54,585 bases of DNA from Verrucomicrobiota bacterium (lineage in GTDB: Bacteria > Verrucomicrobiota > Verrucomicrobiia > Limisphaerales > J093). The translations under genes and the position numbers were made by a program. Below the pieces are notes generated by a model. It was not told where the DNA came from. It saw only the letters and a list, made by a program, of their open reading frames with translations, and searched no databases. This document shows, piece after piece, positions 188 through 33,037 of the stretch. The DNA lies in NCBI GenBank assembly GCA_029556615.1, contig JAKQDD010000040.1, positions 1 through 54,585 of the forward strand. Reading direction: 5' to 3'. Position 1 is the stretch's first letter. Each line of letters begins with the position of its first letter.

Positions 188-308
188 AGCCTTTACCACT
201 CCCCTGCTCATCGCGTTGGCCTTGTACGAGGAGTGATCGACGCAACCATGAAGGGCCAGGTGCCTCGTGAAATCGAACCGCCACCGCAACGACAAGGGGC
301 AGGCTGCG

Positions 309-3300
309 ATGCCCAATGGGCCTGCCGGAGTGGAGCCTCGGCTCTCGCCGGAGGCTGAATCCGGGTCCTCCCCCGGAGGGAGAACTTGCACCCCTCCTGC
401 GCCCCACGCCCCGCCCCAGATTCCCGATTACGAACTGGTCCGCTGCATCGGCGTGGGCAGCTACGGCGACGTGTGGCTGGCGCGCAACGCCCTGGGCCGC
501 TACGACGCCGTAAAGGTGATCTATCGTGATCGCTTCGAGCACGCGCGACCGTACGATCGCGAGTTCGAAGGAATTCGGAAGTACGAGCCGGTGTCGCGCA
601 AGCACGCCAGCCAAGTGGCGCTGCTCCATGTGGGGCGAGATGCGACCGACCAGTATTACTACTACGCCATGGAGTTGGCCGATGACGTCGAGCGCGGTCA
701 GGAGATCGAGCCGGAGAGCTACCGGCCACGTTCGTTGGAGACGGAATTGCGGCGGCGAAGCCGCTTGCCGGTGGGGGACTGTGTGGAGCTGGGATTAGCC
801 CTGACGCAGGCGCTGGAGCAATTGCATGCCGAAGGATTGATTCACCGGGACATCAAGCCAGGGAACATCATCTGGGTGGGCGGCGTGCCGAAGCTGGCGG
901 ACATCGGCTTGGTGGCGGAGAAGGACCAGACAATGACGCTGGTGGGCACGCGGGGGTATCTGCCCCCGGAGGGTCCCGGAAGCGTGGCTGGGGACATCTA
1001 CAGTCTGGGCAAGGTCCTTTACGAATGCAGCACCGGCCAGGATCGCCAGGAGTTTCCCAATCTGCCGGCGGAACTGGCGGACCGAATCGGCCACGCACAG
1101 TTCCTGGAATTCAACGAGGTCATCCTCAAGGCCTGTCACAGCGATCCCCGTAAGCGATACCAAGCGGCCCGTGAGGTCCATGACGACCTGATGCTGATCC
1201 ATGCCGGCAGGTCCCTGCGCCGCAAGCACGTGTTGGAGCGGCGCTTCACCCTGCTGGCTCGCGCGAGCATGGCGGTGGCGGCCTTGGCAATACTCGCCGC
1301 GAGCGGCTATTGGTTTCAAAAACGCCAAACGGAGGAGGCACAAGAATCCCGGCAACGCGCCGAGCGCGCCGTCAAGCATTTGGAATTGAAGCAGGCGGAG
1401 GAAATGTTCGCCGCGGATCAGGCCTCCACCGCGTTGGCTAGCTTGGCCCGATTGCTACGAGAGGACCCCACGGACCGGATGGTGGCCGAGCGGATCCTCG
1501 CGGCCCTGAGCCAGCGCAGCTTCCCGCTGCCAGTGGCACGGCTGGCTCACACCGCAGATGGGACGGTGGCCACATTCTCCTCCGACGGGCGCCGGATCAT
1601 CACCGGCTCGCAGGATGGGACGGTAACCGTGTGGGACGTTCAAACCGGCGGGCGCATCGGTCCGCCGCTGCAGCATGACGGTCCGATCAGCTTCATCGAG
1701 CCCAGTCCCAGCGGGCGAATGACCGCCACGGCGAGCGGTGGACAGGTGCGCGTTTGGAACGCGGAAACCGGCCAACCGGTGACCGACTGGCTGCCGCAAT
1801 CGCGGCCGGTGCGAATAATCCGGTTCAGCTCCGACGAAACACGACTGCTGCTTTGTCTGTCCAGCGAGGCAGTGATGCTTGATGCCAGGAACGGGAACAA
1901 GCTGGCAGGACCTCTGCACATGCCGGAAGCCATTACCGGGACCGATGCCAAAGCCGACTTCAGTCCCGATGGAAACCGCATTGCGGTGGCATGTTCGGAT
2001 CGGGCAGTCAAAGTCTGGGATCTGCAAACCGGTTCGTTGCTCTGCACCTTCACTCATCCCGGCAGAGCCTCCGTGGTTTGTTTCAGCCCCGACGGCACGC
2101 GCCTGCTCATCGCCTCGGGCGTGAACACCGCCCGCCTCTGGGATTCCCGCACCGGCAGGTTGCTGGTCAGCCTTGTTGGGCACGATTTCCCGGTCAATCA
2201 CGCGGCTTTCAGTCAGGATGGGGCGCGTGTGATCACCGGTTCAAACGACCGAACGGCCAGGATTTGGGACGCCCAGACCGGCGAACTGCGGGTAGGCCGC
2301 TTGCAACATTTCGGTTTTGTCTCCCATGTAGATTTCAGCGCCGATGGCCGGCTGGCACTGACAGCATCCGCCGTTGGCGACCTGCGGGTCTGGAACGCCC
2401 AAAGCGCAGAGCCCATCCACGAAGCTCGTTACGACAACCAGAGCATCCCGTGCCAGGAGTTGAGTCCGGACGGGGAGCACATCCTCGTCAAGCTCCGAAA
2501 CGAATCGGTGGCCTGGCTCCTGGATGCACGCCTTGGCCAGAGCCTGCCCAGAGTTCTACCCCACGAGGATTTTGTGGTCTTTGCCCGGTTCAACACCAAT
2601 TCTTCGCGGCTCTTGACCACCACCGATTGGGTGGTGTCCAACATCCAAACGCCTCGGTCAACTCGCGACGACGAACGCCAACCCGATCCCATTCTGCGGG
2701 GCGCCGCCCGAGTCTGGGAAGTTGCCAGCGGCCAGCCGGTAACGCCGCCATTGGCGCATGAAGACGGCTTGCTCTCCGCGGACTTCAACCCGGATGGCAC
2801 CCGCATCGCGACCGGCTGTCGCGACCAAGCGGCTCGGATCTGGGACGCCACCACCGGTGAATTGCTGCGGGAACTCCCGCATGAGAGCCGCCGGGGCGTT
2901 CGCAGCGCGCTTTTCACTCCGAATGGCCGCAATCTCCTCACCAGTTGTTGGCTGAACGACGGCGCGCTCTGGGACGCACGCACCGGCCAGATGCTTCGCC
3001 GATTCCAGGACCAGGACGAGGACGAAGGCAGCAACTATTTCATGCCCGTGCGCACCGCCGACATGAGCCGCGATGGACGCCTCGTCGTTACCGGCTCGCG
3101 GGACGGGGCCCGTGTCTGGAACGTCGAAACTGGCGAACGCCTGCCGTATGTGTACGGCGCTGGCCAGAACGTCCGGGCCGCGCGTTTCAGTCCTCAAGGA
3201 GACCGGCTGGTCACCGCTGCGAGAAGGGAAACCGGGGACTCACCCAGTTGCGCCCAGGTCTGGGACGTGGCGACCGGGCAGGCCGTCACCCATTTCCTGC

Positions 3301-3902
3301 TGCACAACGATACCGTCCGCCATGCCGAGTTCAGTCCGGACGGCGCGCGCGTCGTCACGGCGTCACTCGACCGCACCGCGCGCATCTGGGACGCCCGCAC
3401 CGGCCGGCAACTCATCGAACCGCTCCAGCACAAGGGCTGGGTGATGCACGCCGAGTTCAGTCCGGATGGCCAGCGCGTGGTCACCGTGTCCTGGTGGGAC
3501 CATGCCGCCTTTCTCTGGGACGCCCACACCGGCCTGCCGCTGGGCGACCCGCTCCGGCACGACGACTGGGTGACTTTCGCCACCTTCAGTCCGGACGGAC
3601 GCTGGCTGGTCACGACCTCGTGCGACGGGACGGCGAAGATCTGGGCGCTACCCCAGGCCACCGCTCCCGTCCCGGCCTGGCTGGCGGATCTGGCCGAAGC
3701 GGTCGGCGGCCAGCGCCTCGATGACCTACGCCTCCCGCAGGCAGTTTCCTTGGAAAAACTATGGAATCTCCGAACCCAACTGCTGGCCAGTCCGGACGCG
3801 GATGCCTACACCCGCTGGGCCCAGTGGTTCTTCGCTGATCGGGCCACGCGCCCCAACTCGGCCTACACAGGGTCGAACGCGACAGACGCATCAACGCCCT
3901 GA
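309..3902 (+). CDS. Ser/Thr protein kinase fused to WD40 propellers
   Basis: Membrane-anchored Hanks-type kinase of about 1197 residues. The kinase domain (about residues 40-295) shows the glycine loop GVGSYGDVW, the ATP lysine in AVKVI (about K69) and the catalytic loop HRDIKPGN (D about 181). The metal-binding motif reads DIG rather than DFG, and the APE region reads PPE. One transmembrane helix lies at about 315-336, followed by a short charged linker. From about 410 to 1130 come around 16 WD40-like blades ending in WD/WN motifs such as VWDVQTGG and IWDARTGR, enough for two propellers, presumably extracytoplasmic. Start: ATG 309 has GGGGCAGG just upstream; an in-frame GTG at 267 would add 14 residues. 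The class is common in Planctomycetes and Verrucomicrobia; the signal sensed is unknown. Blades are near-identical in layout, so internal duplication is likely. Confidence 0.93.
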   Translation: MPNGPAGVEPRLSPEAESGSSPGGRTCTPPAPHAPPQIPDYELVRCIGVGSYGDVWLARNALGRYDAVKVIYRDRFEHARPYDREFEGIRKYEPVSRKHASQVALLHVGRDATDQYYYYAMELADDVERGQEIEPESYRPRSLETELRRRSRLPVGDCVELGLALTQALEQLHAEGLIHRDIKPGNIIWVGGVPKLADIGLVAEKDQTMTLVGTRGYLPPEGPGSVAGDIYSLGKVLYECSTGQDRQEFPNLPAELADRIGHAQFLEFNEVILKACHSDPRKRYQAAREVHDDLMLIHAGRSLRRKHVLERRFTLLARASMAVAALAILAASGYWFQKRQTEEAQESRQRAERAVKHLELKQAEEMFAADQASTALASLARLLREDPTDRMVAERILAALSQRSFPLPVARLAHTADGTVATFSSDGRRIITGSQDGTVTVWDVQTGGRIGPPLQHDGPISFIEPSPSGRMTATASGGQVRVWNAETGQPVTDWLPQSRPVRIIRFSSDETRLLLCLSSEAVMLDARNGNKLAGPLHMPEAITGTDAKADFSPDGNRIAVACSDRAVKVWDLQTGSLLCTFTHPGRASVVCFSPDGTRLLIASGVNTARLWDSRTGRLLVSLVGHDFPVNHAAFSQDGARVITGSNDRTARIWDAQTGELRVGRLQHFGFVSHVDFSADGRLALTASAVGDLRVWNAQSAEPIHEARYDNQSIPCQELSPDGEHILVKLRNESVAWLLDARLGQSLPRVLPHEDFVVFARFNTNSSRLLTTTDWVVSNIQTPRSTRDDERQPDPILRGAARVWEVASGQPVTPPLAHEDGLLSADFNPDGTRIATGCRDQAARIWDATTGELLRELPHESRRGVRSALFTPNGRNLLTSCWLNDGALWDARTGQMLRRFQDQDEDEGSNYFMPVRTADMSRDGRLVVTGSRDGARVWNVETGERLPYVYGAGQNVRAARFSPQGDRLVTAARRETGDSPSCAQVWDVATGQAVTHFLLHNDTVRHAEFSPDGARVVTASLDRTARIWDARTGRQLIEPLQHKGWVMHAEFSPDGQRVVTVSWWDHAAFLWDAHTGLPLGDPLRHDDWVTFATFSPDGRWLVTTSCDGTAKIWALPQATAPVPAWLADLAEAVGGQRLDDLRLPQAVSLEKLWNLRTQLLASPDADAYTRWAQWFFADRATRPNSAYTGSNATDASTP

Positions 3903-3954
3903 AGAATCCAGGAGTTGGCGACCATTCGGAGTGGCTTGGTATGCGCGCCAGCGT

Positions 3955-3984
3955 CTTGGAGTGCGGCGGTCTTCCGCCGCTTTG
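3955..3984. repeat. REP-like hairpin (GGAGTGCGGCGG family), copy 1
   Basis: In the 270-base gap after the kinase gene, CTTGGAGTGCGGCGG is followed by a perfect hairpin, GCGGCGG-TCTT-CCGCCGC (3963-3980), and then TTTGG. A related sequence lies at 41771-41803. The rest of the gap (3985-4171) holds no convincing gene; it contains GC-rich repeat-like sequence. Confidence 0.5.
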
Positions 3985-4198
3985 GTCTCAGCGCGGAGCG
4001 CGGGGGAGCACGGACCGGCCTTCGGCCAGATTCCTCTCGCGGCAGGCCCTCTCAGCGTCCCGTAGCAGTCGAGGTGACGAGGCTCGTACTTCACGGACAC
4101 CAGAGCCTGCCAAGGAATGGGGCGACTGGTTGGGGCAGTCTCAGCGAGGCCCACAACGAATGATGATGGCGTCAGTGCCCTGGACGGCCGGCGGATTC

Positions 4199-5557
4199 CT
4201 ACTGGCCCACGATGCGGACTTGATCCCAACCGCGCACGGCCAGGCCGGTCACGGTCGTACCGAGGAGCACCACCTCCGTGCTCTGGTTGTCCCGCGCGCC
4301 CGCCGCCCCAAAGTCCCGCGCCTAGCCAAAGTCCACGCTCACGTCCATCAAGCCGTCCCCGTTCACGTCGGCCAGGCTCGCCCCCCGCGCGGCGACGGTG
4401 CCGGGCAGGTTGGGATCGCCCAGGGTCACGGTGGCGAGGTCCAGCATGGTGGCGTCGAAGTCCGCAGTGGAGACCACGCCCACTTCGAGCGGTTTGTTGC
4501 TGGTGAGGTTGAACGGGTCCACCTCGTTGGGATAATTCTACAGCTTGAGATCCATCTCCACCTCCACCAGCGGGTCCTTGATCACCGTCGTGAAGTTGTC
4601 AAGCAGGGTGGCGTTCGGGTAGGAAGTCACGCGGACGCTGCTGATGAGGTTCTCCTCGGTCTCGACGGACAGAACGTCCCATGCGACAAGACCTTGGCCA
4701 TACACCCAATTGCCGGCGCCCACAGTCGTGGCAATCACGTTCTTGCTGGAGTCAGAAGCCTCCAGCGTTACAGGCCAATACGCCGCGTAGTAGAACGCCA
4801 CGGCACCGACTGGCACATCAAATGACACGTCGGCGGATAGCTCCGAGGTCCAGAAAGCCACCGTCGGATCCGAGGGTTTGTTGGCGAACGGCCCACCCAA
4901 CAGCGTCCGCCGCGGAGCCGGGAAGCGCATCCTCGAGGCGGTGCCCTCGGTCAGCCCGCCGTTCTCCGGATTAATCAGCCCGCCCTGAGTTCCGCCCTCG
5001 AACGTGCAGACGTCAATCACCTGGGTGTTGGCACGCCAGACCTACAGATCGTCGAGGTAGAACGAGCCGCCAGTGTAACCCGAAAACTCGAGGGCAATGA
5101 TCACGGTCTCGCCGGCGTCAAGCGTTACCCGGTCCCAAACGGAAAGAGGCTTCCACATGTCGGACCAGTCCGGGTTGGGAGGAAGAGTCTGTTCGTAGTC
5201 GCCGGTTTTGGCGCGGACCGTAACCGGGTGGTCAAAGCTGGAGGCATAGTAGAAGCTGACTCGGGCTACGGGCGGATCGAAGGCAACCACGCCAGGGCTG
5301 GTTTCGAAGAAAGCCACCGTGGGAACGGACGGGTTGTCCTTGTAAACATCCTCATTGCGCGTATACCAGCCGTTCATCACGATCCCGGCTTCGGGAACCG
5401 CGCCGATCTCCGCCTCGGGCGTCATTCCCTCAAAGGTGACCTGGGCCGATTCGCCGATCTGAAAGGACTCGATGGCCTGCCCTCTCGCGAGTTGCGCGGC
5501 GGCACACATAAGGCCGCATACGAGCGCCAGCTTGGTCGCATGTCTGAGTGTTTTCAC
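4199..5557 (-). pseudogene. Secreted two-domain protein interrupted by three in-frame TAG codons
   Basis: Starts at GTG 5557 (AAAGGA upstream) with a signal peptide of about 26 residues ending near QLARGQA. A first domain of about 145 residues follows (TVAFFE..., VARVSFYYAS), ending FYLDDL at a TAG (5042-5044). The frame continues without a shift into VWRANTQVID and a second copy of the same domain (TVAFWT..., GAVAFYYAAYWPVTLEA). A TAG follows MDLKL (4538-4540), then comes a C-terminal domain resembling the IDIKPGS..PN module (NYPNEVDPFN, STADFDAT, ADVNGDG). A third TAG (4322-4324) precedes ARDFGAAGARDNQ. The frame ends at VRIVGQ-TAG (4199-4201), or at TGA 4172 if that TAG is also read. No frameshift or deletion is visible. 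It is either a gene inactivated by nonsense changes or one read through at amber codons; CAG-to-TAG would explain each site economically. Confidence is for the gene structure, not for its activity. Confidence 0.75.
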
Positions 5558-12462: not shown

Positions 12463-13082
12463 GGGATCACATCTCACGATTACACAGTGGACGCATTGTC
12501 TGGGAGCGGAAGGGTTGCGTTCATGGCACGGCCTTTGCGGATTGAGCGGGCGGGCGGTTGGTATCACGTGAGTGCCCAGGGCAATGCACGGAGAGCGATT
12601 CACCCGGACGATCGCGACTGGCGGCATCTCCTGGAGGTGCTCGCCGAGATGGTCCTCCGTTATCGCGTCCGGCGGCATGGGTTCGTTGCTGCGGGAGCAG
12701 GTGGTGCTGGGCGGGGCCAAGTTTCTGGCGCGCTTGAGGGCGCCTGGGAGTGGGAACCGGCAGGAGCAACGTGGAGCGGGGCGGTTGCTGGTGGAGCGGT
12801 CGGCGTTGGATGCCGTGGTCGCGGCGGTCGAGAATGTGAAGGGACTGCCGTGGCCGGACTTTCGGGACCGCAATGGAGACACGGGGCGGGAGATGACGCT
12901 GACCTTGGGGCGGCGGCTCTGCGGGCTGAAGGTAGCGGAAGTGGCGCAGGCGGTGGGGTTGCGGAATTACGGGGTGGCGACGACCAGCGTCAAACGGTGC
13001 GAAGGGCGATTGGCCCACGACCGCGCGGAGAGGGAACGAAGGCAGCAGAGGCGTGAATGGTTTAATTGTGAGATATGACCCC
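12463..13082. mobile_element. Inverted-repeat-flanked RAYT element
   Basis: GGGATCACATCTCACGATTA (12463-12482) and the complement of GGGGTCATATCTCACAATTA (13063-13082) match at 17 of 20 positions and enclose a degenerate REP-associated tyrosine transposase gene. Ends of the same type bound 10847-11135. The left end lies in the 5' region of the aldo/keto reductase gene on the opposite strand and may have replaced its native promoter. Confidence 0.65.
12523..13078 (+). pseudogene. REP-associated tyrosine transposase (RAYT), internally deleted
   Basis: The N-terminus MARPLRIERAGGWYHVSAQG, followed by NARRAIHPDD, is the hallmark start of Y1/IS200-like RAYT proteins. After about 48 codons the reading frame changes by +1 near 12665-12690. 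The next recognisable part is a C-terminal segment (LREQVVLGGAKFLARL, GREMTLTLGRRLCGLKVAEV, YGVATTSVKRCEGRL with a helix-turn-helix) ending at TGA 13076-13078. The central catalytic region with the HUH motif and the nucleophilic tyrosine is missing. The gene is therefore inactive and could move only if a complete copy elsewhere acts in trans. Confidence 0.8.
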
Positions 13083-13302
13083 GCTTTTTCAATCGTTGAC
13101 AAGTCTGCCTCAGCGGCATGGATCCGGCGCGGCCAGGCTTTGTCCCGGTCTCTCTGTTCTTGAACCGGCCGGAGCGCCTGCGCCAGCGCCTTGCACCCCA
13201 GAGCGCCCGATCACCGCGCCAGCTGCTGAAGCCTCCGATGGACGTTGCGGACGGGCGGTGAGACTTGATTGCGGGGTCGCCATGGGCTATAGGAGCAGGA
13301 CG

Positions 13303-15621
13303 ATGACACCCGCCCTAATCCTGGACTTCCTTCGGACCCGCGTGTCGCTTTTCCGCCATCTGCCGGCCGATCGTCTGGAATCGGTGATCAGGGAGTCGCG
13401 CGTCGTCTCGGTCGAACCCCACGAAGCGGTCATCGAGTTTGGCGATGAGGCGAGATTCCTGGGCGTGCTACTTGAGGGCGAAATCGGCGTCTCCGTTGTC
13501 GGAGAAGGGGGGCGGCGCCAGGTGTTGGGCCATTTCGCCGCGGGCGACACTTTTGGCGAGATGGCGCTGATGAGCGGTGAGAGGACCCAGGCCGACTTCA
13601 TTGCGGTGACGCGGTGCCAGGTCCTGCGGATTCCGGTGGCGCTCTTTCAGTCGGTGATCCTGACGGAGCCCGCGGCGTTGCAGCACGTCTCGAAGACGCT
13701 GGCGAGCCGTTTCCAGCAGATGATGGCGGACCCCGCCTTGGCAGCGGCGGCGTTTCGCCAGAGCGCAGATCCCTACGGCCTGAACTTGAAGGGGGAACGG
13801 CCGGAGAAGGTCCTTGTCATCAACTGCGGTTCGTCGTCGCTCAAGTACGCGTTCTTCGACACGGATGGCGCTGCGGATCCGACGCGCGGCGTGATCGAGC
13901 GGATTGGGGGGCAAGGCACGCGGCTGGTGCAGCAGGGGCCGCGGGGTGAAGTGGCTTACGAGCTTCCGCGGGGCGGCTACGAGGAGGCCTTCGAGGCCAT
14001 GCTCGGCGCGCTCATGGCGCCGGAGACGGGTGTCGTGCGCGAACCGTCGGAAATCACGGTGGTTGGCCATCGTGTGGTGCATGGCGGGGAGCGGTTCAGC
14101 GAGGCGGTTGTCATTGACGACGCGGTGCTTCGGGAGATTGAAGCGTTGAACCGGCTGGCGCCCTTGCACAATCCGGTGAATCTGGCCGGGATCCAGGCGG
14201 CGCGGCGGGCTTTTCCGGCGGTGCCCCACGTGGCGGTGTTCGACTCCGGGTTTCACCACGCGCTGCCGTCGTACGCGTACCTCTACGGACTGCCCTACGA
14301 GTATTACGAGAAGAGCGCCGTGCGCCGCTACGGGTTCCATGGAAGCTCGCACGAGTACGTGTGTCTCCGCGCGGCGCAGCATCTGCAGCGGCGGGTGAAC
14401 GAACTGGAGATCGTGAGCTGTCACCTGGGCAATGGCGCTTCACTCTGCGCGGTGGATCATGGGCGGTCGGTGGACACGACGATGGGGTTCACCCCGGGTG
14501 AAGGGCTGATCATGGGGACGCGCTGTGGCGACCTCGACTCGGGCGTGGTTGCCTATCTCGAGCGCGAGCAAGGACTCACGGGGGCCCAGATCGACGAATT
14601 GCTCAACAAGAAGAGCGGGTTGCTCGGTCTCTCGGGCATTTCCAGCGACATGCGGGAAATCGAGAAGGCGGCCGAAGACGGCGATTCCCGGGCGCTGGTG
14701 GCGCTCAAGGCGTTCTGCTATCGGGTGCGCAAGTACATCGGGGCGTATCTGGCGGCGATGGGGGGCATGGACGTGCTGGTGTTCACGGGGGGCATCGGGC
14801 AAGGCAGCGCCGGGGTGCGGTCGCTCGCCTTGCAGGGCCTCGGCTGCATGGGGATCGAACTCGACGAGCGCCGCAACCGCGACGCCCGCGGCTTTGACGA
14901 GATCTGCCGCATTTCGGCGGACGGTTCCCCCGTGACGGTTTTGGTGGTGCCGACGGACGAGGGGCGGATGATTGCGCGGGAGACGTTGCGGGCCCTGAGT
15001 CGTTCCTACCTTACGCGCGTGCTCGAGGCGCACCGGAACGAGCCGATTCCCATCGAGGTTTCCGCGCATCATCTCCATCTGGCTCAGGGACACGTCGAGG
15101 CGCTCTTTGGCCCGGGGCACCAACTCTCGTGGCAGAGCGATCTCTCGCAGCCTGGCCAGTTTGCCTGCCAGGAGCAGGTCACGATTATCGGGCCCAAGGG
15201 TCGTGTGGAACGTGTGCGGGTGCTGGGGCCTACGCGCAACGCCACGCAAGTGGAGATCTCGATGACGGAGCAGTTCAAGCTGGGCATCCATCCGCCGATT
15301 CGCGAATCCGGAGATCTTCAGGGGACACCCGGCTGCACGCTCGAAGGGCCCGCCGGCCGCGTTGCGCTCGAGCGCGGAGTCATCTGCGCGATGCGCCACA
15401 TTCACATGACACCTGCCGACGCGCTGCGCTACGGGGTGAGGGACAAGTCGACGGTGCGGATCCGCGTGCCGGGAGACCGGGAGTTGATCTTCGGCGATGT
15501 GCGCGTTCGGGTGGGCGCGAACTATCGGCTTGCGATGCACATTGACACCGATGAAGCCAATGCCGCCAACCTCAAGACTGGCGTGCAGGGCTACCTGGAC
15601 GGCATTCAGAGCCAGGACTGA
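13303..15621 (+). CDS. cNMP-binding / acetate kinase / PduL fusion protein
   Basis: 772 residues from ATG 13303, preceded by AGGAGCAGG. Residues about 18-140 form a cyclic-nucleotide-binding fold (VLLEGEIGVSVVGEGG, FGEMALMSGERTQADF). Residues about 168-565 are a complete acetate kinase: VLVINCGSSSLKYAFFD, GHRVVHGGERF, FDSGFHHALP, RRYGFHGSSHEYV, SCHLGNGASL, TGGIGQ. Residues about 582-768 are a PduL-type phosphotransacylase with the zinc motifs VSAHHLHL and MRHIHM and the end HIDTDEANAA. Together they can interconvert acyl-CoA and acylate plus ATP on one chain. The cNMP-like domain has GEMALMSGERTQAD where CRP-type proteins have GE..L...R.A, so ligand binding is plausible but unproven. No shell-protein genes are nearby, so a microcompartment role is not supported here. 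An in-frame ATG at 13282 is an alternative start. Confidence 0.93.
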   Translation: MTPALILDFLRTRVSLFRHLPADRLESVIRESRVVSVEPHEAVIEFGDEARFLGVLLEGEIGVSVVGEGGRRQVLGHFAAGDTFGEMALMSGERTQADFIAVTRCQVLRIPVALFQSVILTEPAALQHVSKTLASRFQQMMADPALAAAAFRQSADPYGLNLKGERPEKVLVINCGSSSLKYAFFDTDGAADPTRGVIERIGGQGTRLVQQGPRGEVAYELPRGGYEEAFEAMLGALMAPETGVVREPSEITVVGHRVVHGGERFSEAVVIDDAVLREIEALNRLAPLHNPVNLAGIQAARRAFPAVPHVAVFDSGFHHALPSYAYLYGLPYEYYEKSAVRRYGFHGSSHEYVCLRAAQHLQRRVNELEIVSCHLGNGASLCAVDHGRSVDTTMGFTPGEGLIMGTRCGDLDSGVVAYLEREQGLTGAQIDELLNKKSGLLGLSGISSDMREIEKAAEDGDSRALVALKAFCYRVRKYIGAYLAAMGGMDVLVFTGGIGQGSAGVRSLALQGLGCMGIELDERRNRDARGFDEICRISADGSPVTVLVVPTDEGRMIARETLRALSRSYLTRVLEAHRNEPIPIEVSAHHLHLAQGHVEALFGPGHQLSWQSDLSQPGQFACQEQVTIIGPKGRVERVRVLGPTRNATQVEISMTEQFKLGIHPPIRESGDLQGTPGCTLEGPAGRVALERGVICAMRHIHMTPADALRYGVRDKSTVRIRVPGDRELIFGDVRVRVGANYRLAMHIDTDEANAANLKTGVQGYLDGIQSQD

Positions 15622-15770
15622 TATCGTGTTGAACGTGAGAAAGGGCCGCTCGAGTCGCCCAGACCGGGCTGACTCGCCAGCCCCTTGGCAGAGGCCATAG
15701 GAGCGAAGAGGCCTGGCTCGTAGTCACAGGGGGAGGGAAGAACCGGCGCGCGGGGACGTTCCACCGATCC

Positions 15771-16172
15771 TCAGAACATCTTATCGAAGGAGCTTTCGGG
15801 GCGGGCTGGTTGCCAGTAGGACGTGGCTGAAGGGGGGCGCTTGAGGGCCAGGGGGTCTTTGCCCAACAACCGCAGCAGCAGGCCGAGAGGGGTCACGACC
15901 AGGAAGAAGACTGCCATCAGGATCATCCAGGAGAGCAGGCGGGCGATGCGAAACGCGATCCGGCTGCCGAGGCGATAGTAGCCTCGGAAGGCGCGGGGGT
16001 GGAGGGTTGCCGCGAGGGCGACGCCGGCGAGAAGCAGGAGCCCGAGCGCGACGCCGAGGGGGGGCAGGACACGTTTCCAGCCGAGGAGACCGCAAAGCAG
16101 CGCGGGACCGATGAGGCTGAGGCAGGTGAACTTGCGCCATTCCCGGGGATTCTCTTGGAGGACGAGCTGCAT
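15771..16172 (-). CDS. SxtJ-like membrane protein
   Basis: 133 residues with three or four hydrophobic helices (LSLIGPALLCGLLG, PLGVALGLLLLAGVALAAT, LLSWMILMAVFFLVVTPLG) and a polar tail. Size, helix pattern and position directly after a NodU/CmcH-type carbamoyltransferase match the SxtJ family, which accompanies such enzymes. It begins 26 bases after the carbamoyltransferase stop, and that spacer holds a copy of the GAGGCGCGCCTC repeat. It is the last gene of the minus-strand operon. Function unproven; probably a membrane partner of the carbamoyltransferase. Confidence 0.75.
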   Translation of the reverse strand: MQLVLQENPREWRKFTCLSLIGPALLCGLLGWKRVLPPLGVALGLLLLAGVALAATLHPRAFRGYYRLGSRIAFRIARLLSWMILMAVFFLVVTPLGLLLRLLGKDPLALKRPPSATSYWQPARPESSFDKMF

Positions 16173-16179
16173 GATTCAT

Positions 16180-16201
16180 CCGTCTGAGGCGCGCCTTGCT
16201 A
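16180..16201 (-). repeat. Dispersed TAGCRAGGCGCGCC motif, copy at carbamoyltransferase stop
   Basis: On the minus strand TAGCAAGGCGCGCCTCAGAC starts with the TAG stop of the carbamoyltransferase and ends shortly before the SxtJ start. It shares the inner palindromic core GGCGCGCC and the CTCAGAC tail with the copies at 36596 and 40686. Confidence 0.6.
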
Positions 16202-18034
16202 GTCCGGTTGGGGGGGGACGGGCCGGGGCCGGGGCTGGCGCGGTTGGGCGGCGCGATCGAGGACGAAGGAGCCGAGGACGAGCGCATCCATTTCCGTATT
16301 GACGAAGCAGCGGTAGGCATCGTCGGGGCTGCAGACGATGGGTTCTCCGCGGATGTTGAAGGAAGTGTTGACGAGGACGGCGCAACCCGTTGCGGCGTGC
16401 CAGCGGGTGAGCAGGGCGTGCAGCCGCGGGTTTTGCGCGGGGGAGACCGTCTGGATCCGAGCGGAGTAATCGACATGCGTGACGGCGGGCAGGGTGGAGC
16501 GTTCGGTGCCGAGCAACGCAAGGCCGGCGAGTCCGGGCGGCAGCGGGCGGCGGAGCTCGGGGCGGACGGGAGCCACGAGCAGCATGTAGGGAGAATCGAC
16601 GTCCAGGTCGAAGTACTTCGAGGCTTCCTGGGCGAGCACCACGGGTGCGAAGGGCCGGAAGGACTCGCGGAATTTGACCTTGAGGTTCATGACCGACTGC
16701 ATGCGCGGCGACCGGGGATCGCCGAGGATGGAGCGGTTGCCCAGGGCGCGCGGGCCGAATTCCATGCGGCCCTGGAACCAGCCGACGACCTGTTCCGAGG
16801 CGAGGCGGTGGACGGTATGATCGAGCAACGCCTCGGGGCTGAGCCGGGTATAGACGGCGTCCTGGGCCCGGAGGGTCGCTTCAATCTCCTCATCGCTGTA
16901 TTCGGGGCCCAGGAGGGCCGACCCCATGCTGTCGGCGTCGGGTGCGGCGGTGGCGGGTCGGGAGCGGTCGGCCTTGAGGTGAAGGTGCCAGTAGGCGAGG
17001 GCGGCGCCGAGGGCGCCTCCGGCATCTCCGGCGGCGGGCTGGATCCAGATCCGGTCGAAGAGGCGTTGCCGGTGGATGAGGCCGTTGGCGACGCAATTGA
17101 GGGCGACGCCGCCGGCGAGGCAAAGGCAGGGCTGGCCGGTGAGGTCGCGGGCGTGGCGGGCGAGACGGAGCATGACGTCCTCGGTGACCGTCTGGATGGA
17201 GCGGGCCACGTGCAGGTGGCGTGGTTCGATCGGGGCTTCCGGCTGCCGCGGCGGCCCTCCGAGCAGCGCGTGGAACCGCTCATTGGTCATGGTGAACCCG
17301 CGCAGGAAATCGAAGTATGCCAGGTTCAGCCGGAAGGAGCCGTCGGCCTGGATATCGATCAGTTCGCGGCGGATGGCCTCGGCGTATCGGGGTTCGCCGT
17401 AGGGTGCGAGTCCCATCAGTTTGTATTCCCCGGAGTTGATCCGGAAGCCGCAATACGCGGTGAACGCGGAGTAGAGCAGGCCGAGGGAGTGGGGAAAGCG
17501 GAGCTCCCGGAGGATCTCGATGTGGCGGTCGCGGCCCACGCCGAGGGTGGTGGTTGCCCATTCGCCGACGCCATCGATGGTGAGGATGGCAGCTGTGGCG
17601 AAGGGGGAGGGGTAGAATGCGCTGGCGGCGTGGGCCTGGTGATGCTGGGTGAAGCCGAGAACGGCGCGGGGATCGAGCCCCGGCAGTTCCCGCCGGAGGG
17701 TACGGCGGACATCGAGTTTTTCGGCGAACCAATCGGGCAGCACGTGGGGGAAGGTCCGCCAGCCCCCCGGGGCGACCGCCAGGTAGCTCTCGAGGAGACG
17801 CGAGAACTTCAGGAGCGGCTTGTCGTAGAACACCACTGCGTCGAGCTGTGCCGGGGTGATCTTCCCTTGCCGGAGGCAGAATGCCACGGCCGCGTGGGGG
17901 AAGCCGGGGTCATTTTTTCGGCGTGAGAATCGCTCCTCCTGGGCGGCGGCGACGATGGTGTCTCCCTGGATGAGGCAGGCGGCGGCGTCGTGATAGTAAG
18001 CTGAGAGGCCGAGGATGTGCGGCGCTGCCGGCAT
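16199..18034 (-). CDS. Carbamoyltransferase (NodU/CmcH family)
   Basis: 611 residues starting ILGLSAYYHDAAACLI, the family N-terminus with the Kae1-like nucleotide fold; QEERFSRRKNDPGFP and TQHHQAHAASAFY supply metal-binding histidines. The C-terminal part (about 390-600) has the YrdC-like and NodU signatures QGRMEFGPRALGNRSIL and VNTSFNIRGEPIVCSP. Such enzymes transfer a carbamoyl group from carbamoyl phosphate to a hydroxyl on a sugar, antibiotic or lipid. The ATG (18034) is three bases after the TGA of the small DUF5989 gene, indicating translational coupling. The stop is a TAG lying inside a copy of the dispersed TAGCRAGGCGCGCCTCAGAC repeat. The acceptor is unknown. Confidence 0.93.
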   Translation of the reverse strand: MPAAPHILGLSAYYHDAAACLIQGDTIVAAAQEERFSRRKNDPGFPHAAVAFCLRQGKITPAQLDAVVFYDKPLLKFSRLLESYLAVAPGGWRTFPHVLPDWFAEKLDVRRTLRRELPGLDPRAVLGFTQHHQAHAASAFYPSPFATAAILTIDGVGEWATTTLGVGRDRHIEILRELRFPHSLGLLYSAFTAYCGFRINSGEYKLMGLAPYGEPRYAEAIRRELIDIQADGSFRLNLAYFDFLRGFTMTNERFHALLGGPPRQPEAPIEPRHLHVARSIQTVTEDVMLRLARHARDLTGQPCLCLAGGVALNCVANGLIHRQRLFDRIWIQPAAGDAGGALGAALAYWHLHLKADRSRPATAAPDADSMGSALLGPEYSDEEIEATLRAQDAVYTRLSPEALLDHTVHRLASEQVVGWFQGRMEFGPRALGNRSILGDPRSPRMQSVMNLKVKFRESFRPFAPVVLAQEASKYFDLDVDSPYMLLVAPVRPELRRPLPPGLAGLALLGTERSTLPAVTHVDYSARIQTVSPAQNPRLHALLTRWHAATGCAVLVNTSFNIRGEPIVCSPDDAYRCFVNTEMDALVLGSFVLDRAAQPRQPRPRPVPPQPD

Positions 18035-22109: not shown

Positions 22110-23561
22110 CTACATGAGCGTACCGATCGCCTGGTCGGCGAGATTGACGACAGCGTTGGGGAAGATCCCCAGCCAGAGGAGGCCGGCCAAGCAGGTCCAC
22201 AAGGCCACGCGCGCGGGCCAGTTGATGCCGATGCGGCAGCCCTGGCGTCTGGCTGAGGGTTCGGTCCAGTAGAGGGTTCGGATGACGCCGAAGTAGTAAT
22301 AGATGGAAATGACAACTCCGAGGATGGCGATGCCGACGAGCGCGTACATGCCGTGGGACACTTCGCCTCGGGAGACAGCCGCCTTGAGGAGCAGGAATTT
22401 GCCGAAGAAACCCGCGAGTGGGGGGATGCCTGCCAGGGAGACCATGGCGGTGGCGAGCGTGGCCGCGAGGAGGGGCGATTGACGATGCAATCCCGCGAGG
22501 GCGCTGATTTCCTCTTCCTCGGTGGTTCTGGCGACCAGGCAGAGGACACCGAAGGCGGCTGCCAGTGCGAACAGGTAACCCGCGAGGTAGAAGAGAACGG
22601 CGGCCAGACCCTCGCGGGTGGTGGTGCAGATTCCGAGGAGCAGGTACCCGGCGTTGGCGATGCTCGAGTAGGCGAGCAACCGCTTGAGGTTCCGCTGGGG
22701 TATGGCGCAGAGAACGCCGTAGACCATACTGGCTCCGGCGACGATCATCAGCAAGAGTTGCCAATGCGGGTCCAAGCCGGGCAGCAAGGCCATCAGCCAT
22801 CGGACCAGGAGGGCGATGCCTGCCGCCTTGGATCCGATGGCCAGGAACGCGGTGGTTGGGGTGGGAGCGCCCTGGTAGACATCCGGTGCCCAGACCTGGA
22901 AGGGGACTGCTGCGAGCTTGAACGCCAACCCTGCGAAAACGAGGAGCAGCCCTGTCTCGAAGAGCGGCCCGCGCAGGACGTCTGCCGGTGCCGCCGCCAA
23001 TCGGGGCAGGCTGAGTGTTCCGCTGGCTCCATAGACGAGCGCGATGCCATAGACCAGGAACGCGGACGACAAGGCGCCGAGGATGAGGTATTTGGCGCCC
23101 GCTTCGAGGGACACCGGTTGACGCCGGTGATAGCTGGTCAGGACGTAGAACGTGATGGTCACGAGTTCGAGCGCCAGGAACAACAGGCTGAAGTCGTTGG
23201 CCGAGGCGGCGAACATCATGCCTGTGAGCGCGAACAGCGTCAGGGCGGAGTACTCGGTCTCGCTTCGTTCGCGGTCGGCGGGGGATTCGACGGCGAACAA
23301 GAGGACCAGGAGGGCGGCCAGGAGGAAGAACCGCTTGAAATAGAGGGCGTATTCATCGAGGACGTACATGCCGCCGAACGCGGTGCGGGGTCCCGGGGTG
23401 ACGAAGGCGAAACTGGCGAGGAAGATGACGCCGACGGCGATGACGGCGGCGTAACTGAGGACGCGTTTTTCGGCCGGCGGCGTCCAGAGGTCGAGCAACA
23501 GGAGGGCGAGAGCGGTGATTAGCACCGCGGCTTCCAGGCCCATGGTCATCAGGTCGCTCAT
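22110..23561 (-). CDS. nuoN: NADH-quinone oxidoreductase subunit N
   Basis: 483 residues, about 14 transmembrane helices, an antiporter-like proton-pumping subunit of complex I. Characteristic pieces: LFLALELVTITFYVLTSYHR with the conserved membrane glutamate, PFQVWAPDVYQGAPTP, and LLAYSSIANAGYLLLG. The C-terminus WLGIFPNAVVNLADQAIG is typical. ATG 23561 follows the nuoM stop by six bases. It is the last gene of the nuoJKLMN run; the stop is TAG. Confidence 0.95.
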   Translation of the reverse strand: MSDLMTMGLEAAVLITALALLLLDLWTPPAEKRVLSYAAVIAVGVIFLASFAFVTPGPRTAFGGMYVLDEYALYFKRFFLLAALLVLLFAVESPADRERSETEYSALTLFALTGMMFAASANDFSLLFLALELVTITFYVLTSYHRRQPVSLEAGAKYLILGALSSAFLVYGIALVYGASGTLSLPRLAAAPADVLRGPLFETGLLLVFAGLAFKLAAVPFQVWAPDVYQGAPTPTTAFLAIGSKAAGIALLVRWLMALLPGLDPHWQLLLMIVAGASMVYGVLCAIPQRNLKRLLAYSSIANAGYLLLGICTTTREGLAAVLFYLAGYLFALAAAFGVLCLVARTTEEEEISALAGLHRQSPLLAATLATAMVSLAGIPPLAGFFGKFLLLKAAVSRGEVSHGMYALVGIAILGVVISIYYYFGVIRTLYWTEPSARRQGCRIGINWPARVALWTCLAGLLWLGIFPNAVVNLADQAIGTLM

Positions 23562-23567
23562 GCCGGG

Positions 23568-25190
23568 TCAGGAGTCTTCCTGCTGCGCCCTGGCGTCGGT
23601 TGGAGGGGGCTTCTGCAGGAGCATGGGCGTCATTGCGGGCGCCACGGACGATGAGGACTGGAGGGGTTGGGTCTGCGGGTTGTTGGGGGTTGCCGGCGAT
23701 TCGGCGAGGCTGGGCCCGTGCACGGCATGGATGATGTCGAGGGTTGTCGCCTGGATCCGCTCGGTGAGCAACCGCGGGAAGCAGCCGAGCAGGATCAGCG
23801 CTGCGAGCAGGAGGGCGAACGGGGTTTTAGGCCACGCCCCGGCGAGGTCAGTGAGCCCTGCCCAGCGTGCGGGCAACGGGCCGTGGAGCAATCGCCGCAC
23901 CGCCCGCAGGGCATAGACGGCGCCGACAACCAGGCCGGCCCAGGCGGCGAGGCTCACCACCACGGGATGGGCCTTCCACGCCCCGAACAGGACCAGCATT
24001 TCGCCCGGGAAATTGGCGAACCCGGGCAGGCCGCAGCCTGCCAGGAGTGCGAGGGCGAGTGCGGTTCCCACGAAGGGCATCCGTTGCAGCAAGCCACCCA
24101 GGTTGTCGAACTCGACGGTACCCAGGCGTTCGCGCAGGAATCCGGCGAGGCCGAAGCTGAGTGCGGCGAGCAGTCCATGGGCGACCATGACGACGACCGC
24201 GCCGGTGATGCCGACGAGGGTGAGGCTGGCGATACCGAGGAACACGAAGCCCATGTGGGCCACGCTCGAGTTCCCGAGCAGCAGCGTGAGGTTGCGCTGG
24301 CGCATGGCCACGAGCCCGCAGTAGAGCAGGTTGCCCAGGCAGAGAACCGCCAGGACACCGATCCAATCCCGGGCGGCGGCGGGCAGCATGGGCACTGCCA
24401 CGCGCAGCAGGCCATAGAGGCCGAACTTCTTGAGGACGCCGGCGTGGAGCATTGCGGTTGCGGTTGGGGCGGTGTCGTAGGCGATGGGGGCCCACGTGTG
24501 GAATGGCCAGAGGGAAACCAGAATGCCGAATCCGAAGAGGAGCAAGGGGAAGAGGGTGGCTTGGGCCGACTCGGAGAGCGGGTGGGCGGCGAGATGGCGT
24601 CCCAGCTCGACCACATCAAAGGTTTTCGCGTCTGAAACCACGTAGAGACCGATCAAGCCCAGCAGGACGAGGAGGGCGCCCAGGCTGAGGTAGATCGTGA
24701 TCTTGAACGTTGCGTAGGCGCGTCGCTCGCCCCGGCCCCAGATCCCCATCATCAGGAACGTCGGCACGAGGGCCAGCTCGTGGAAGAAGTAGAAGAAGAA
24801 CAGGTCGAGCGAGGCGAAGGTGCCGAGAACCCCGCAGATCATGACCAGGAGGAGCAGGTAGTACTCCTTCTGTCGGTCGGTGATCTCGCGCGAGGCGGCG
24901 GCTGCGGCGAAGCCGACGAGGGCGGCCATGACGATCAGGCCGAGGTTCAATCCGTCGGCCCCCAGGTGGAATCCGATGCCCACCGAATCGACCCAGGGCA
25001 TGTACTCCTCGAACTGGATCCGGGCGGTGCCGGGTTCGAACCCGGCGAAGAGGGCGAGGGCGCCGAGGAGAGAGAAGAGGGTGGTGCCCAGGGCGATGAG
25101 TCGGAACAGGAACTGGAATCTCCTGGGGGTGAGGGCGATGGCGGCAGCGCCTGCTGCCGGACACAACACGATGAAAGAGAGTGTGTCCAT
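23568..25190 (-). CDS. nuoM: NADH-quinone oxidoreductase subunit M
   Basis: 540 residues, antiporter-like subunit of complex I. It shows FFYFFHELALVPTFLMMGIW with the conserved glutamate, SLWPFHTWAPIAYDTAPTAT, LKKFGLYGLLRV and NSSVAHMGFVFLGI. The C-terminal 50 residues are polar and proline- and glutamine-rich (TPNNPQTQPLQSSSS), longer than usual. The gene starts three bases after the nuoL stop. Confidence 0.95.
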   Translation of the reverse strand: MDTLSFIVLCPAAGAAAIALTPRRFQFLFRLIALGTTLFSLLGALALFAGFEPGTARIQFEEYMPWVDSVGIGFHLGADGLNLGLIVMAALVGFAAAAASREITDRQKEYYLLLLVMICGVLGTFASLDLFFFYFFHELALVPTFLMMGIWGRGERRAYATFKITIYLSLGALLVLLGLIGLYVVSDAKTFDVVELGRHLAAHPLSESAQATLFPLLLFGFGILVSLWPFHTWAPIAYDTAPTATAMLHAGVLKKFGLYGLLRVAVPMLPAAARDWIGVLAVLCLGNLLYCGLVAMRQRNLTLLLGNSSVAHMGFVFLGIASLTLVGITGAVVVMVAHGLLAALSFGLAGFLRERLGTVEFDNLGGLLQRMPFVGTALALALLAGCGLPGFANFPGEMLVLFGAWKAHPVVVSLAAWAGLVVGAVYALRAVRRLLHGPLPARWAGLTDLAGAWPKTPFALLLAALILLGCFPRLLTERIQATTLDIIHAVHGPSLAESPATPNNPQTQPLQSSSSVAPAMTPMLLQKPPPTDARAQQEDS

Positions 25191-25193
25191 GGC

Positions 25194-27086
25194 TTACCGG
25201 GCCAGGAGTCCCGCCAGCAGGAGCAGGGCGCCTGCGGCGAACCAGAGGGCGTAGGTTTGCAGGTTGCCGGTCTGAGCGAGCCTCAGGAGCCGGCCGGCGA
25301 TCTCGAAGGTCCCATGGGTCCCGCGCACCATCAGGCCGGCGATGATCCAGCGGTCAATCCAATCGGCGCAGCGGGCCAGGGGTTCCTGGGTGACGCGGAT
25401 GAGCCAGGCGTAGAACTCGTCGATGTAGAACCGGTTGGCGAGGATTCTCGCCAGGGCTCCCAGCCGGGAGGGTAGGGGATCGGTCAGTTGCCCATGGTAC
25501 AGGAATCCGGCGACCGCCATGCCGCCGAGGGCGGCGAGCAAGCCACCTGCGGCGGCCAGAGGGGCGTGGGTGAAGGGTTCGGCCAGCGTCGCCCAGATCC
25601 CGGTCGGTGCGGGTCCGGAGGGTCCCAAGGCGTGGGCGCAGGCTTGGCCGAGCCCCCAGAAGCCGGACAACACGGTGGGGACGGTGAGGAGTGCCAGGGG
25701 CACGGTCATGATCAGCGGCGACTCGTGGGCTTCCCTGGCCTGCTGGGTCCGGGCCGGGCCCAGGAAGGCGACGAAGACCAGGCGGGCCATATAGAAGGCG
25801 GTAAGGAAGGCCACGCCGACGCCGAGGGCGAACAACGGCGGGCTCTGGTGCTGGGCGAGGGCCAGGATGGCGTCTTTGCTGAAGAAGCCACTGAAGGGCG
25901 GGAGGCCGCAGAGGGCGAGGGTGCCGGCCAGGAACGTGACGAACGTGAGCGGCAGGCGCCGGCCGAGGGCTCCCATGTGCCAGATGTCCTGCTCGTGGTG
26001 CAGCGCGTGGATGACGGATCCTGCGCCGAGGAACAGGAGGGCCTTGAAGAAGGCATGCGTGATGAGGTGATGGAATCCGGCATCAGGTCCGGTCTGGGCG
26101 CCGGAGAGGCCGACGGCCATCACCATGTAACCGAGCTGGGAGAGGGTCGAGTAGGCGAGGATTCGCTTGAGGTCGTTTTGCTGAATCGCCATGAGTGCCG
26201 CGATCAGGGCGGTGATGGCTCCGGTCCATGCGATGACGGGGAGGGCCTGCGAATCCGGCAGCGCGAGCAGGAAGAACACGCGGCAGAGGAGATAGACGCC
26301 GGCGGCGACCATGGTAGCGGCATGGATGAGGGCGCTGACCGGCGTCGGTCCTTCCATGGCGTCGGGAAGCCAGACGTGCAGGGGAAACTGGGCGGATTTG
26401 CCGACCGCGCCGCAGAAGACCAAGAGGCCGACGGCGGTGGCGAGGGGACCCAGCGCGTGGGGATTGGCGTCAAGCTTGGATTCGAGCACGGCGTAGTCGA
26501 GCGACCCCAGAGTGGCCCAGAGAAGGAGCAGGCCCAGAAGAAACCCGAAATCACCGATACGATTGACGAGGAAAGCCTTCTTGCCGGCGTCGGCAGCGGC
26601 CGGGCGTTGGTGCCAGAACCCGATCAGGAGGTAGCTGGCGGCGCCCACCAGTTCCCAGAAGATGAACAGGACGAGGAAGTTATCGGCGAGGACAATGCCG
26701 GTCATGGCAAACGTGAAGAAGCTGAGGCCTGCATAATAGCGGCCCATGCCGGGGTCGTCCGCCATGTAACCGTACGAATAGAGGTGGATCACCCCGGCCA
26801 CGCCGGTCACGACGAGCAGCATCAGGGCGCTCAGCGGGTCCAAACGCAACCCGAGGTCGACGAGGAAAGCGGTGGTACCATCCGTGAGTGAGATCCAGGG
26901 GACGGCGACGCGTCCTTGAACATGGCCGACGAAGAGGAGGAGACTGGCCGCGAAGGCGGCGATCACGGCGCCGATCGAGAGGGCGGCGCTGAGGCGCCCG
27001 TGGCGGAGCGTGGCCAGGGTGATGCCCGCGGCGGCCGCGAGCGGCAGGAGCAGGATCAGCCACACGAGTTGGATCTGGGGGGACAT
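25194..27086 (-). CDS. nuoL: NADH-quinone oxidoreductase subunit L
   Basis: 630 residues, the distal proton-pumping subunit of complex I with the lateral C-terminal helix. Signatures: LFIFWELVGAASYLLIGFWH, NRIGDFGFLLGLLLLW, FPLHVWLPDAMEGPTPVSA, and AYSTLSQLGYMVMAVGLSG. The C-terminal part (NRFYIDEFYAWLIRVTQEPL onward) is the amphipathic helix plus last transmembrane segment. Stop TAA; it lies six bases after nuoK. Confidence 0.96.
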   Translation of the reverse strand: MSPQIQLVWLILLLPLAAAAGITLATLRHGRLSAALSIGAVIAAFAASLLLFVGHVQGRVAVPWISLTDGTTAFLVDLGLRLDPLSALMLLVVTGVAGVIHLYSYGYMADDPGMGRYYAGLSFFTFAMTGIVLADNFLVLFIFWELVGAASYLLIGFWHQRPAAADAGKKAFLVNRIGDFGFLLGLLLLWATLGSLDYAVLESKLDANPHALGPLATAVGLLVFCGAVGKSAQFPLHVWLPDAMEGPTPVSALIHAATMVAAGVYLLCRVFFLLALPDSQALPVIAWTGAITALIAALMAIQQNDLKRILAYSTLSQLGYMVMAVGLSGAQTGPDAGFHHLITHAFFKALLFLGAGSVIHALHHEQDIWHMGALGRRLPLTFVTFLAGTLALCGLPPFSGFFSKDAILALAQHQSPPLFALGVGVAFLTAFYMARLVFVAFLGPARTQQAREAHESPLIMTVPLALLTVPTVLSGFWGLGQACAHALGPSGPAPTGIWATLAEPFTHAPLAAAGGLLAALGGMAVAGFLYHGQLTDPLPSRLGALARILANRFYIDEFYAWLIRVTQEPLARCADWIDRWIIAGLMVRGTHGTFEIAGRLLRLAQTGNLQTYALWFAAGALLLLAGLLAR

Positions 27087-29518: not shown

Positions 29519-29536
29519 CGAGGCGCGCCCAAGACC
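29516..29536 (+). repeat. Dispersed TAGCGAGGCGCGCC motif, copy at sulfatase stop
   Basis: TAGCGAGGCGCGCCCAAGAC begins with the TAG stop codon of the sulfatase gene and lies in the 37-base spacer before the SDR gene. Other copies: 36596, 40686, 40863, and 16201 on the minus strand. Confidence 0.6.
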
Positions 29537-29555
29537 CAACCAAGTTCGCGATCTC

Positions 29556-30341
29556 ATGAAAGGCAGAGGATCAGTGCTGGATGGGAAGCGGGTGGTGATC
29601 ACGGGGGCTTCGAGCGGCTTTGGCGCCGCGGCGGCGCGCGCTTTTGGGGCGGCGCAGGCGCATCTCCTGCTTGGCGCCCGGCGGGTCGACCGCCTGGCCG
29701 TGGCGGCGCAGGAGGGATTGTCCGCCGGCGCTCGCGCGGCGGCTTTCCATCGGCTGGATGTCACGCGCACGGAGAGTGTCGGCGCGTTTGTCGAATGGGT
29801 GCGGAGCCAGACGCCGCGGGTTGATGTCCTGATCAACAACGCGGGGGGGGCGCTCGGGCTCGAGCCGGTGGCGGAGGGGCGGGACGAGGATTGGGAGACG
29901 ATGATGCAGACCAACGTCCTGGGGCTGCTGCGGATGACGCGGGCGGTGTTGCCCCTGATGTTGCCGCACCCGGGAGGGACTATTCTCAACATTGGGTCGG
30001 TGGCGGGCCATGTGGCCTACGAGGGTGGAGCCGCCTACTGCGCGGCCAAGGCGGGCGAACTGCAGATCACGCGGGCCTTGCGGCTCGAGTTATGCGGGAC
30101 TGGTCTGCGGGTGGCGACGATCGATCCCGGGATGGCGGAGACGGAGTTCTCGATGGTCCGGTTCAAGGGGGATGCCGATCGGGCGGCGAAAGTGTACGAG
30201 GGTGTGGAAGCGCTGCGGGCGGAGGACGTGGCGGAGGCGATGGTTTGGGTAGCCAGCCGGCCGCCGCATGTTTGCGTGGATGAGATGCTTCTGAAGTGCA
30301 CGGACCAGGCGGCGATCCACAAGGTGCATCGACGGAAGTAG
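29556..30341 (+). CDS. Short-chain dehydrogenase/reductase (YdfG-like)
   Basis: 261 residues from ATG 29556. Rossmann motif VVITGASSGFGAAAARAFG; NNAGGALG; catalytic S148, Y161 and K165 (GSVAGHVAYEGGAAYCAAKA). The C-terminus with VDEMLLKCTDQAAIHKVHRR is close to the NADP-dependent 3-hydroxy acid dehydrogenase (YdfG) group, which oxidises serine and related hydroxy acids; the assignment to that subgroup is by sequence feel only. It lies 37 bases after the sulfatase on the same strand, with a repeat motif in the gap. Confidence 0.88.
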   Translation: MKGRGSVLDGKRVVITGASSGFGAAAARAFGAAQAHLLLGARRVDRLAVAAQEGLSAGARAAAFHRLDVTRTESVGAFVEWVRSQTPRVDVLINNAGGALGLEPVAEGRDEDWETMMQTNVLGLLRMTRAVLPLMLPHPGGTILNIGSVAGHVAYEGGAAYCAAKAGELQITRALRLELCGTGLRVATIDPGMAETEFSMVRFKGDADRAAKVYEGVEALRAEDVAEAMVWVASRPPHVCVDEMLLKCTDQAAIHKVHRRK

Positions 30342-30379
30342 ACAATTCCGAGGGCCTGCTGCGTCCTCGATGTGGAGAC

Positions 30380-31365: not shown

Positions 31366-31384
31366 ATCTCAACCTAACTGAATC

Positions 31385-32974: not shown

Positions 32975-33037
32975 GCCGCCCAGTCCGGGTGCGCCTTTCC
33001 GCCTTGTGTGCGGGGGGCGTCCTGCGTACAAGGGGGC

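Follow-up and report, generated by a model that had tools for sequence, protein, structure and literature searches.

The subject of this report is a fused gene on contig JAKQDD010000040.1 of a Verrucomicrobiota bacterium (assembly GCA_029556615.1), a stretch of 54,585 nucleotides that is hereafter called the window. The gene encodes a 772-residue protein in which a cyclic-nucleotide-binding (CNB) domain is followed by an acetate/propionate kinase (Ack) and a PduL-type phosphotransacylase. Both enzyme domains are complete and lie on a single chain. From the sequence we lean, with slightly better than even confidence, towards the view that this polypeptide makes ATP from acyl-CoA outside a microcompartment under the control of a small molecule, probably one other than a classical cyclic nucleotide. 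The CNB domain has lost the arginine that normally holds the cyclic phosphate, and has done so throughout the family, while the remainder of the pocket is well conserved.

The original prediction, made from the letters alone, had placed a sensor-like domain, a complete Ack and a complete PduL on one chain, and this is borne out by Pfam, whose matches to the open frame are all above cut-off. The kinase family PF00871 (Acetate_kinase) scores 472.6 bits (cut-off 22) with profile positions 1–392 of 392 covered, and the NCBIfam model TIGR00016 scores 467.5 bits against a cut-off of 293.4. If N7, R91, H123, D148, H180, R241 and E384 are the catalytic positions of the Methanosarcina Ack, as we take them to be, then alignment to its structure 1g99 gives N174, R257, H289, D314, H346, R407 and E553 as their equivalents in the fusion. 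Each of these is conserved in 159–163 of the 164 rows of our family alignment, E553 being gapped in five. The alignment consists of 153 proteins (the window's own included, the duplicate P0002 removed) and 11 locus translations, and 11 of its rows are shorter than 700 residues. The phosphotransacylase part matches PF06130 (PTAC) with 256.6 bits over profile positions 1–176 of 176, and NF011652 of NCBIfam with 260.9 bits, above its cut-off. For rPduL, the available parts of PMC4784909 list H48, H50, E109, H157, H159 and H204 as zinc ligands and R103 as a phosphate contact. An ungapped alignment to 5cuo maps the ligands to H590, H592, E651, H699, H701 and H746 and the arginine to R645, so that both predicted zinc motifs are indeed present, and these residues are intact in every alignment row that reaches them, bar one H592Q. 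We infer that the Ack and PduL domains are both active.

Proteins of this kind recur in other genomes. A search with the full protein matched 7972 of 7996 scored candidates, a capped set that includes ordinary Acks, and the best 120 matches, the window's own entry among them, all have the three-domain architecture; the original prediction had regarded homologues that are always split as the sign of a local artefact, and this is not what is found. Full homologues occur in metagenome-assembled genomes (MAGs) named Phycisphaerae, Planctomycetota, Akkermansiaceae, Hydrogenedentes and Desulfobacteraceae. When residues 1–160 alone were used against candidates of about 425–1350 residues, 333 proteins matched; the best 120 all carry Ack and 113 have all three domains, the remaining seven being shorter (436–566 residues) and without PduL, with one of them named 'partial'. 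Per genome, the fusion is rare. Full copies were found in 4 of 387 genomes of the window's own phylum (its own genome included, and one of the four copies interrupted by a stop within PduL), in 9 of 294 from the phylum of an Anammoximicrobium MAG and in 6 of 297 from that of a Desulfobacteraceae MAG, the centre genome being counted in both cases. The survey comprised these three phyla, two of which were chosen because the fusion was already known there, and Hydrogenedentes and Bacteroidota lie outside it. The fusion thus recurs in all three phyla surveyed, and the N-terminal domain search that had been proposed alongside such a survey confirms cNMP_binding.

Fusions of Ack and PduL that have no CNB domain also exist, with none among the rows listed for the window's own phylum and four and one, respectively, in the Anammoximicrobium- and Desulfobacteraceae-MAG phyla (a partial frame of 407 residues in genome G721 was left out of this count). 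Among our loci they are represented by L011, L013 (Myxococcales MAG) and L154–L157, and Ack and PduL are separate adjoining genes in L014, L094 and L095. L015, matched over residues 97–566, turned out to be a plain Ack without a CNB domain. Since the Ack–PduL pair exists without it, the CNB domain is probably an added control module and not a part of catalysis. It was probably a later addition, selected for a working pocket.

In a few relatives the reading frame is broken. In L008 (2268–4543) and on contig C11 of G701 (2283–4543, L187), PduL is encoded in a separate frame that overlaps the one for CNB-Ack, owing either to sequence errors or to true splits, and the copy in G217 (contig C82, L091) is an otherwise full fusion with an in-frame TAG inside its PduL part. 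Such cases are what an assembly or annotation artefact could appeal to, but we give practically no credence to this explanation of the window's gene; it is refuted by the recurring three-domain proteins together with one-frame fusions in genomes of three phyla, among them that of G502, whose contig is at least 6.2 Mb long.

The CNB domain itself is assigned by profile and by its predicted CNB fold, with PF00027 (cNMP_binding) at 67.4 bits, above cut-off. Within the phosphate-binding cassette, the canonical position of the phosphate-binding arginine is occupied by Thr95 (13585–13587). Arginine is found there in none of the 164 alignment rows (T 98, M 18, A 11, V 9, I 8, N 7, L 6, S 5, F 2), against nine of nine ungapped CNB stretches from four solved chains. 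The following position holds a hydrophobic residue (M, L, I or V) in 139 rows, where the nine solved stretches have A, S, T or G. Other features of the pocket are retained: of the 164 rows, 162 have the ribose-contacting Glu86, 160 have Gly85 (both in the FGE motif) and 157 have Ala88 (otherwise S 3, G 2, V 2). Because the predicted fold, the ribose-contacting Glu and the Gly are kept, a ligand is still plausible. The pocket residues on which the original prediction had staked its regulatory claim are therefore missing in part: its proposal of control by a nucleotide signal is weakened as regards a cyclic nucleotide by the loss of the arginine in all 164 rows.

In the favored scheme, the two catalytic domains would form a Pta–Ack route with PduL in the place of Pta, running acyl-CoA + Pi + ADP → acylate + CoA + ATP and converting acetyl- or propionyl-CoA to acetate or propionate. 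Flux would be towards ATP, with the acyl phosphate intermediate passed between the PduL and Ack sites, and the CNB domain would act as a regulatory switch through the conserved DPYG linker in response to an unusual ligand. The enzyme could also work in reverse, spending ATP to turn acetate or propionate into acyl-CoA. The organism has other candidate routes in the forward direction, which is in keeping with such a role, but none of the neighboring window proteins given to Pfam matched an uptake family, and the sequence is silent on direction; we regard the reverse reaction as unlikely.

As to what the pocket would bind, we place a non-classical ligand first, with no ligand and a cyclic nucleotide next. 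The conserved cassette hints that the pocket works but accepts another ligand: its mean column conservation of 0.80 is level with Ack (also 0.80) and above the CNB barrel (0.65), in figures based on 80 sequences that were picked largely for similarity to the window protein. The most specific version, which we put forward tentatively as possible but short of even confidence, is that the rebuilt pocket, with its arginine lost and Lys/Thr and a usually hydrophobic residue fixed, responds to a metabolite that is not cyclic (a nucleoside, a compound related to CoA or a molecule reporting the energy state, for instance). The domain would then directly gate the conversion of acyl-CoA to ATP by a single protein, whose gene has spread horizontally among phyla. 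Alternatively, the domain may bind nothing and be a structural or oligomerization module with a filled pocket. This would accord with the bulky hydrophobic cassette residue in 139 of 164 rows, the arginine in no row and the existence of Ack–PduL proteins without a CNB domain, but it sits poorly with a cassette as conserved as Ack beside a looser barrel, and with the excess of fusions with the domain over those without it among those found (4, 9 and 6 against 0, 4 and 1 in the three phyla), and we consider it unlikely. A classical cAMP/cGMP switch, in which the neighboring conserved Lys/Arg94 takes the phosphate in place of the missing arginine, appears rather unlikely to us as well. The genome contains nine class III cyclase-domain matches, and cyclic nucleotides are therefore likely made in this cell; on the other hand, the canonical arginine is absent from every row, the next position is mostly of the hydrophobic kind not seen in the solved stretches (though Gln in the window protein), and the spacing is ungapped on both sides, which leaves Lys/Arg94 one residue off. 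The best Foldseek hits of the domain are trypanosome PKA, but no ligand can be read from this ranking, because the E-values of many CNB domains crowd together.

Several observations weigh against the non-classical switch that we prefer. One of two papers on the trypanosome protein kinase (PMC10959531, PMC6440977), from 2019, reports that a mammalian RI-alpha mutated at the equivalent arginine was still activated by cAMP, with what it calls a 5-fold 'decreased' EC50 (half-maximal effective concentration), so that loss of the arginine does not exclude a cyclic nucleotide. CNB domains without it are in any case common: the survey of the Desulfobacteraceae-MAG phylum listed 13 further CNB places, and 8 of them lack it; the loss by itself is thus not special, and what is special is its uniformity beside the kept FGE. 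Since that motif also has a partly structural role, its retention does not have to reflect ligand binding, and the choice of the 80 sequences tempers the comparison between cassette and barrel. The window's own protein has Gln after Thr95, where most relatives are hydrophobic. The DPYG motif is altered or absent in 6 of 17 locus rows (L005, L009, L012, L092, L151 and L152), which weakens a universal coupling role for it. Finally, the fusion is not the genome's sole route of this type, since a Pta is encoded as well and a PduL/Ack pair lies next to shell genes.

These additional genes lie elsewhere in the assembly. The original prediction had noted that no shell genes lie at the locus, and no PF00936 shell domain was found anywhere on the window's contig (the search did not include PF03319, the pentamer family). 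Five PF00936 matches do occur in this genome, on contigs C163 and C167. On C163, a separate microcompartment-type locus of about 2.7 kb (23100–25838; L002, L084–L086, L088) carries in a row a second PduL, three shell domains of the bacterial microcompartment (BMC) kind and a match to Ack over profile positions 57–392; two further BMC domains lie on C167 (L087, L089), and the Pta gene is on C52. With bin completeness at 94.68% and contamination at 7.45%, these three loci are only probably the organism's own.

The fusion gene does not appear to follow the descent of its host. By RpoB, the window's genome sits with Verrucomicrobiota, with identities of 70% to the Akkermansiaceae MAG, 57% to the Hydrogenedentes MAG and 50–52% to three genomes of the Anammoximicrobium-MAG phylum. 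The fusion protein, in contrast, is 75% identical to that of Hydrogenedentes and 64–69% to those of the same three genomes, but only 59–67% to those of the four genomes nearest by RpoB (67–71%); for two genomes of the Desulfobacteraceae-MAG phylum, RpoB and fusion are level (55% and 60%). A tree of the Ack–PduL part (41 rows), of a quick kind and with long branches, requires 16 changes across nine group labels, against a minimum of 8 and an average of 20.6 after shuffling, which means that some clustering by label persists; one clade with support 96 unites Planctomycetota, Verrucomicrobiota, Bacteroidota and Hydrogenedentes. Because the tree mixes phyla, horizontal spread of the fusion gene is the simplest reading and a probable one. 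Misbinning of the contig was considered as the source of the odd gene tree and rejected: NuoL from the same contig is most similar to that of a same-order genome (59%, 693 bits), followed by Akkermansiaceae (52%) and then class relatives, and a partial NuoL piece from the Planctomycetota side reaches 57% over 342 residues at a far lower score. The contig looks native, the bin contamination notwithstanding.

The features of the gene are compiled in the table below. Its reading frame ends with TGA (15619–15621). A further in-frame ATG at 13075 would give a protein of 848 residues, but we prefer the start at 13303, because the homologues are mostly 767–785 residues long (743–823 overall, best 120 of 7972 matches) and because of the AGGAG upstream. 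Within 12900–15900, neither a promoter-like site on the gene's strand nor a terminator-like site was found. The Ack–PduL junction is less conserved than the CNB–Ack linker (0.64 for residues 564–582).

Table. Features of the fusion gene and its product (window positions).
Feature	Position	Strand	Basis
CNB-Ack-PduL fusion gene	13303..15621	+	Open frame, 772 residues; matches of like length with the same architecture
AGGAG, Shine-Dalgarno-like	13291..13295	+	7 nt upstream of ATG 13303; read from the sequence
CNB-fold domain, residues 1-153	13303..13761	+	Pfam core, residues 35-120 (13405-13662)
Phosphate-binding-cassette region, residues 84-101 (FGEMALMSGERTQADFIA)	13552..13605	+	Ungapped alignment to solved CNB domains; family columns
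CNB-Ack linker, conserved, residues 154-168 (SADPYGLNLKGERPE)	13762..13806	+	Mean column conservation 0.80, 80 sequences
Acetate/propionate kinase (Ack) domain, residues 169-559	13807..14979	+	PF00871 full length; TIGR00016; aligns to 1g99 and 2iir
Ack-PduL junction, residues 560-582	14980..15048	+	Mostly predicted helix (553-576), predicted model
PduL-type phosphotransacylase domain, residues 583-758	15049..15576	+	PF06130 full length; NF011652; 5cuo alignment

The nearest upstream gene of the window with a Pfam family encodes an aldo/keto reductase, and the pieces upstream of the fusion match no family in Pfam or NCBIfam. By eye, out-of-frame pieces at 12499–13078 resemble a decayed IS200-like/REP-associated transposase, for which Pfam and NCBIfam gave no support. 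Downstream follow a small protein, a carbamoyltransferase and a xylose-isomerase-like protein. The small protein matches SxtJ below threshold (21.4 bits, cut-off 24.4) and adjoins the carbamoyltransferase, the two lying within 15771–18034; natural-product gene sets are known to contain such a pairing. An all-against-all comparison of the open reading frames (ORFs) of 19 stretches (ORFs from 110 residues shown, E 1e-8) gave no conserved neighborhood: apart from shadow ORFs, the only recurring neighbors are pyruvate kinase, encoded close by in L006 (844–2439) and L013 (3047–4492), whose genomes are unrelated, and a 32% identical pair in L009 and L011, of which the L009 member is a GGDEF/GAF protein. 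The flanks of L091–L095 in this comparison span only about 1.5 kb and several named loci are short on one side, so distant shared neighbors could escape it. Elsewhere in the window, positions 267–3902 encode a 1211-residue chain that combines a protein kinase domain with WD40 propellers, and at E 0.001 Pfam gives nothing for three long frames of 534, 872 and 1196 residues at 28388–36598.

Should the CNB domain gate the enzyme, substrate-level phosphorylation and acetate or propionate overflow would be controlled by direct allostery on a fused enzyme and not through gene expression. The family would then count among the orphan CNB families of bacteria, its pocket being well conserved but non-classical, and because the attached enzyme gives a measurable output, the search for the ligand becomes a simple assay. 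The protein also points to shell-free use of PduL in a genome that probably also carries a PduL/Ack pair beside shell genes.

Neither the Ack–PduL fusion nor the idea of channeling is new, both having been published in 2016. The available parts of Erbilgin et al. (PMC4784909) describe PduL domains in proteins annotated as Ack that, like the window protein, have PduL fused to Ack and no encapsulation peptide, with a proposed role as a replacement of Pta and channeling of the intermediate. The window protein differs in its N-terminal CNB domain with a conserved non-classical cassette, and PMC4784909 contains neither 'cyclic nucleotide' nor 'cNMP-binding'. For the three-domain combination, we found no description in the open-access PMC literature as judged by the titles and starts of abstracts that were listed, subscription papers lying outside this search. 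The trypanosome PKA regulatory subunit is alike in that a neutral residue (Thr or other) replaces the phosphate arginine with the CNB fold kept; this precedent (PMC10959531, PMC6440977) shows that a CNB domain can lose the arginine and bind nucleosides. The trypanosome protein, however, binds ribose through a change of Ala202 to Glu, whereas the fusion family keeps that alanine (Ala88), and we therefore rejected a CNB domain of this nucleoside-binding type, even though the Arg-to-Thr change fits. The mycobacterial lysine acetyltransferase Rv0998 likewise carries an N-terminal CNB domain on an enzyme, but the enzyme is a different one and was solved with cAMP according to its structure title, whereas the window family lacks the phosphate arginine. 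BMC-associated PduL (rPduL, 5cuo) aligns to the PduL part of the window protein with 168 bits and shares all zinc ligands and the phosphate arginine with it. The features of an encapsulated PduL are not seen here, as the domain stands behind Ack (no peptide predictor was run) and PF00936 is absent from the contig; unlike its BMC-associated counterparts, the window's PduL shares a polypeptide with the Ack in front of it, and for the PF00936 shell domains of the genome one has to go to other contigs.
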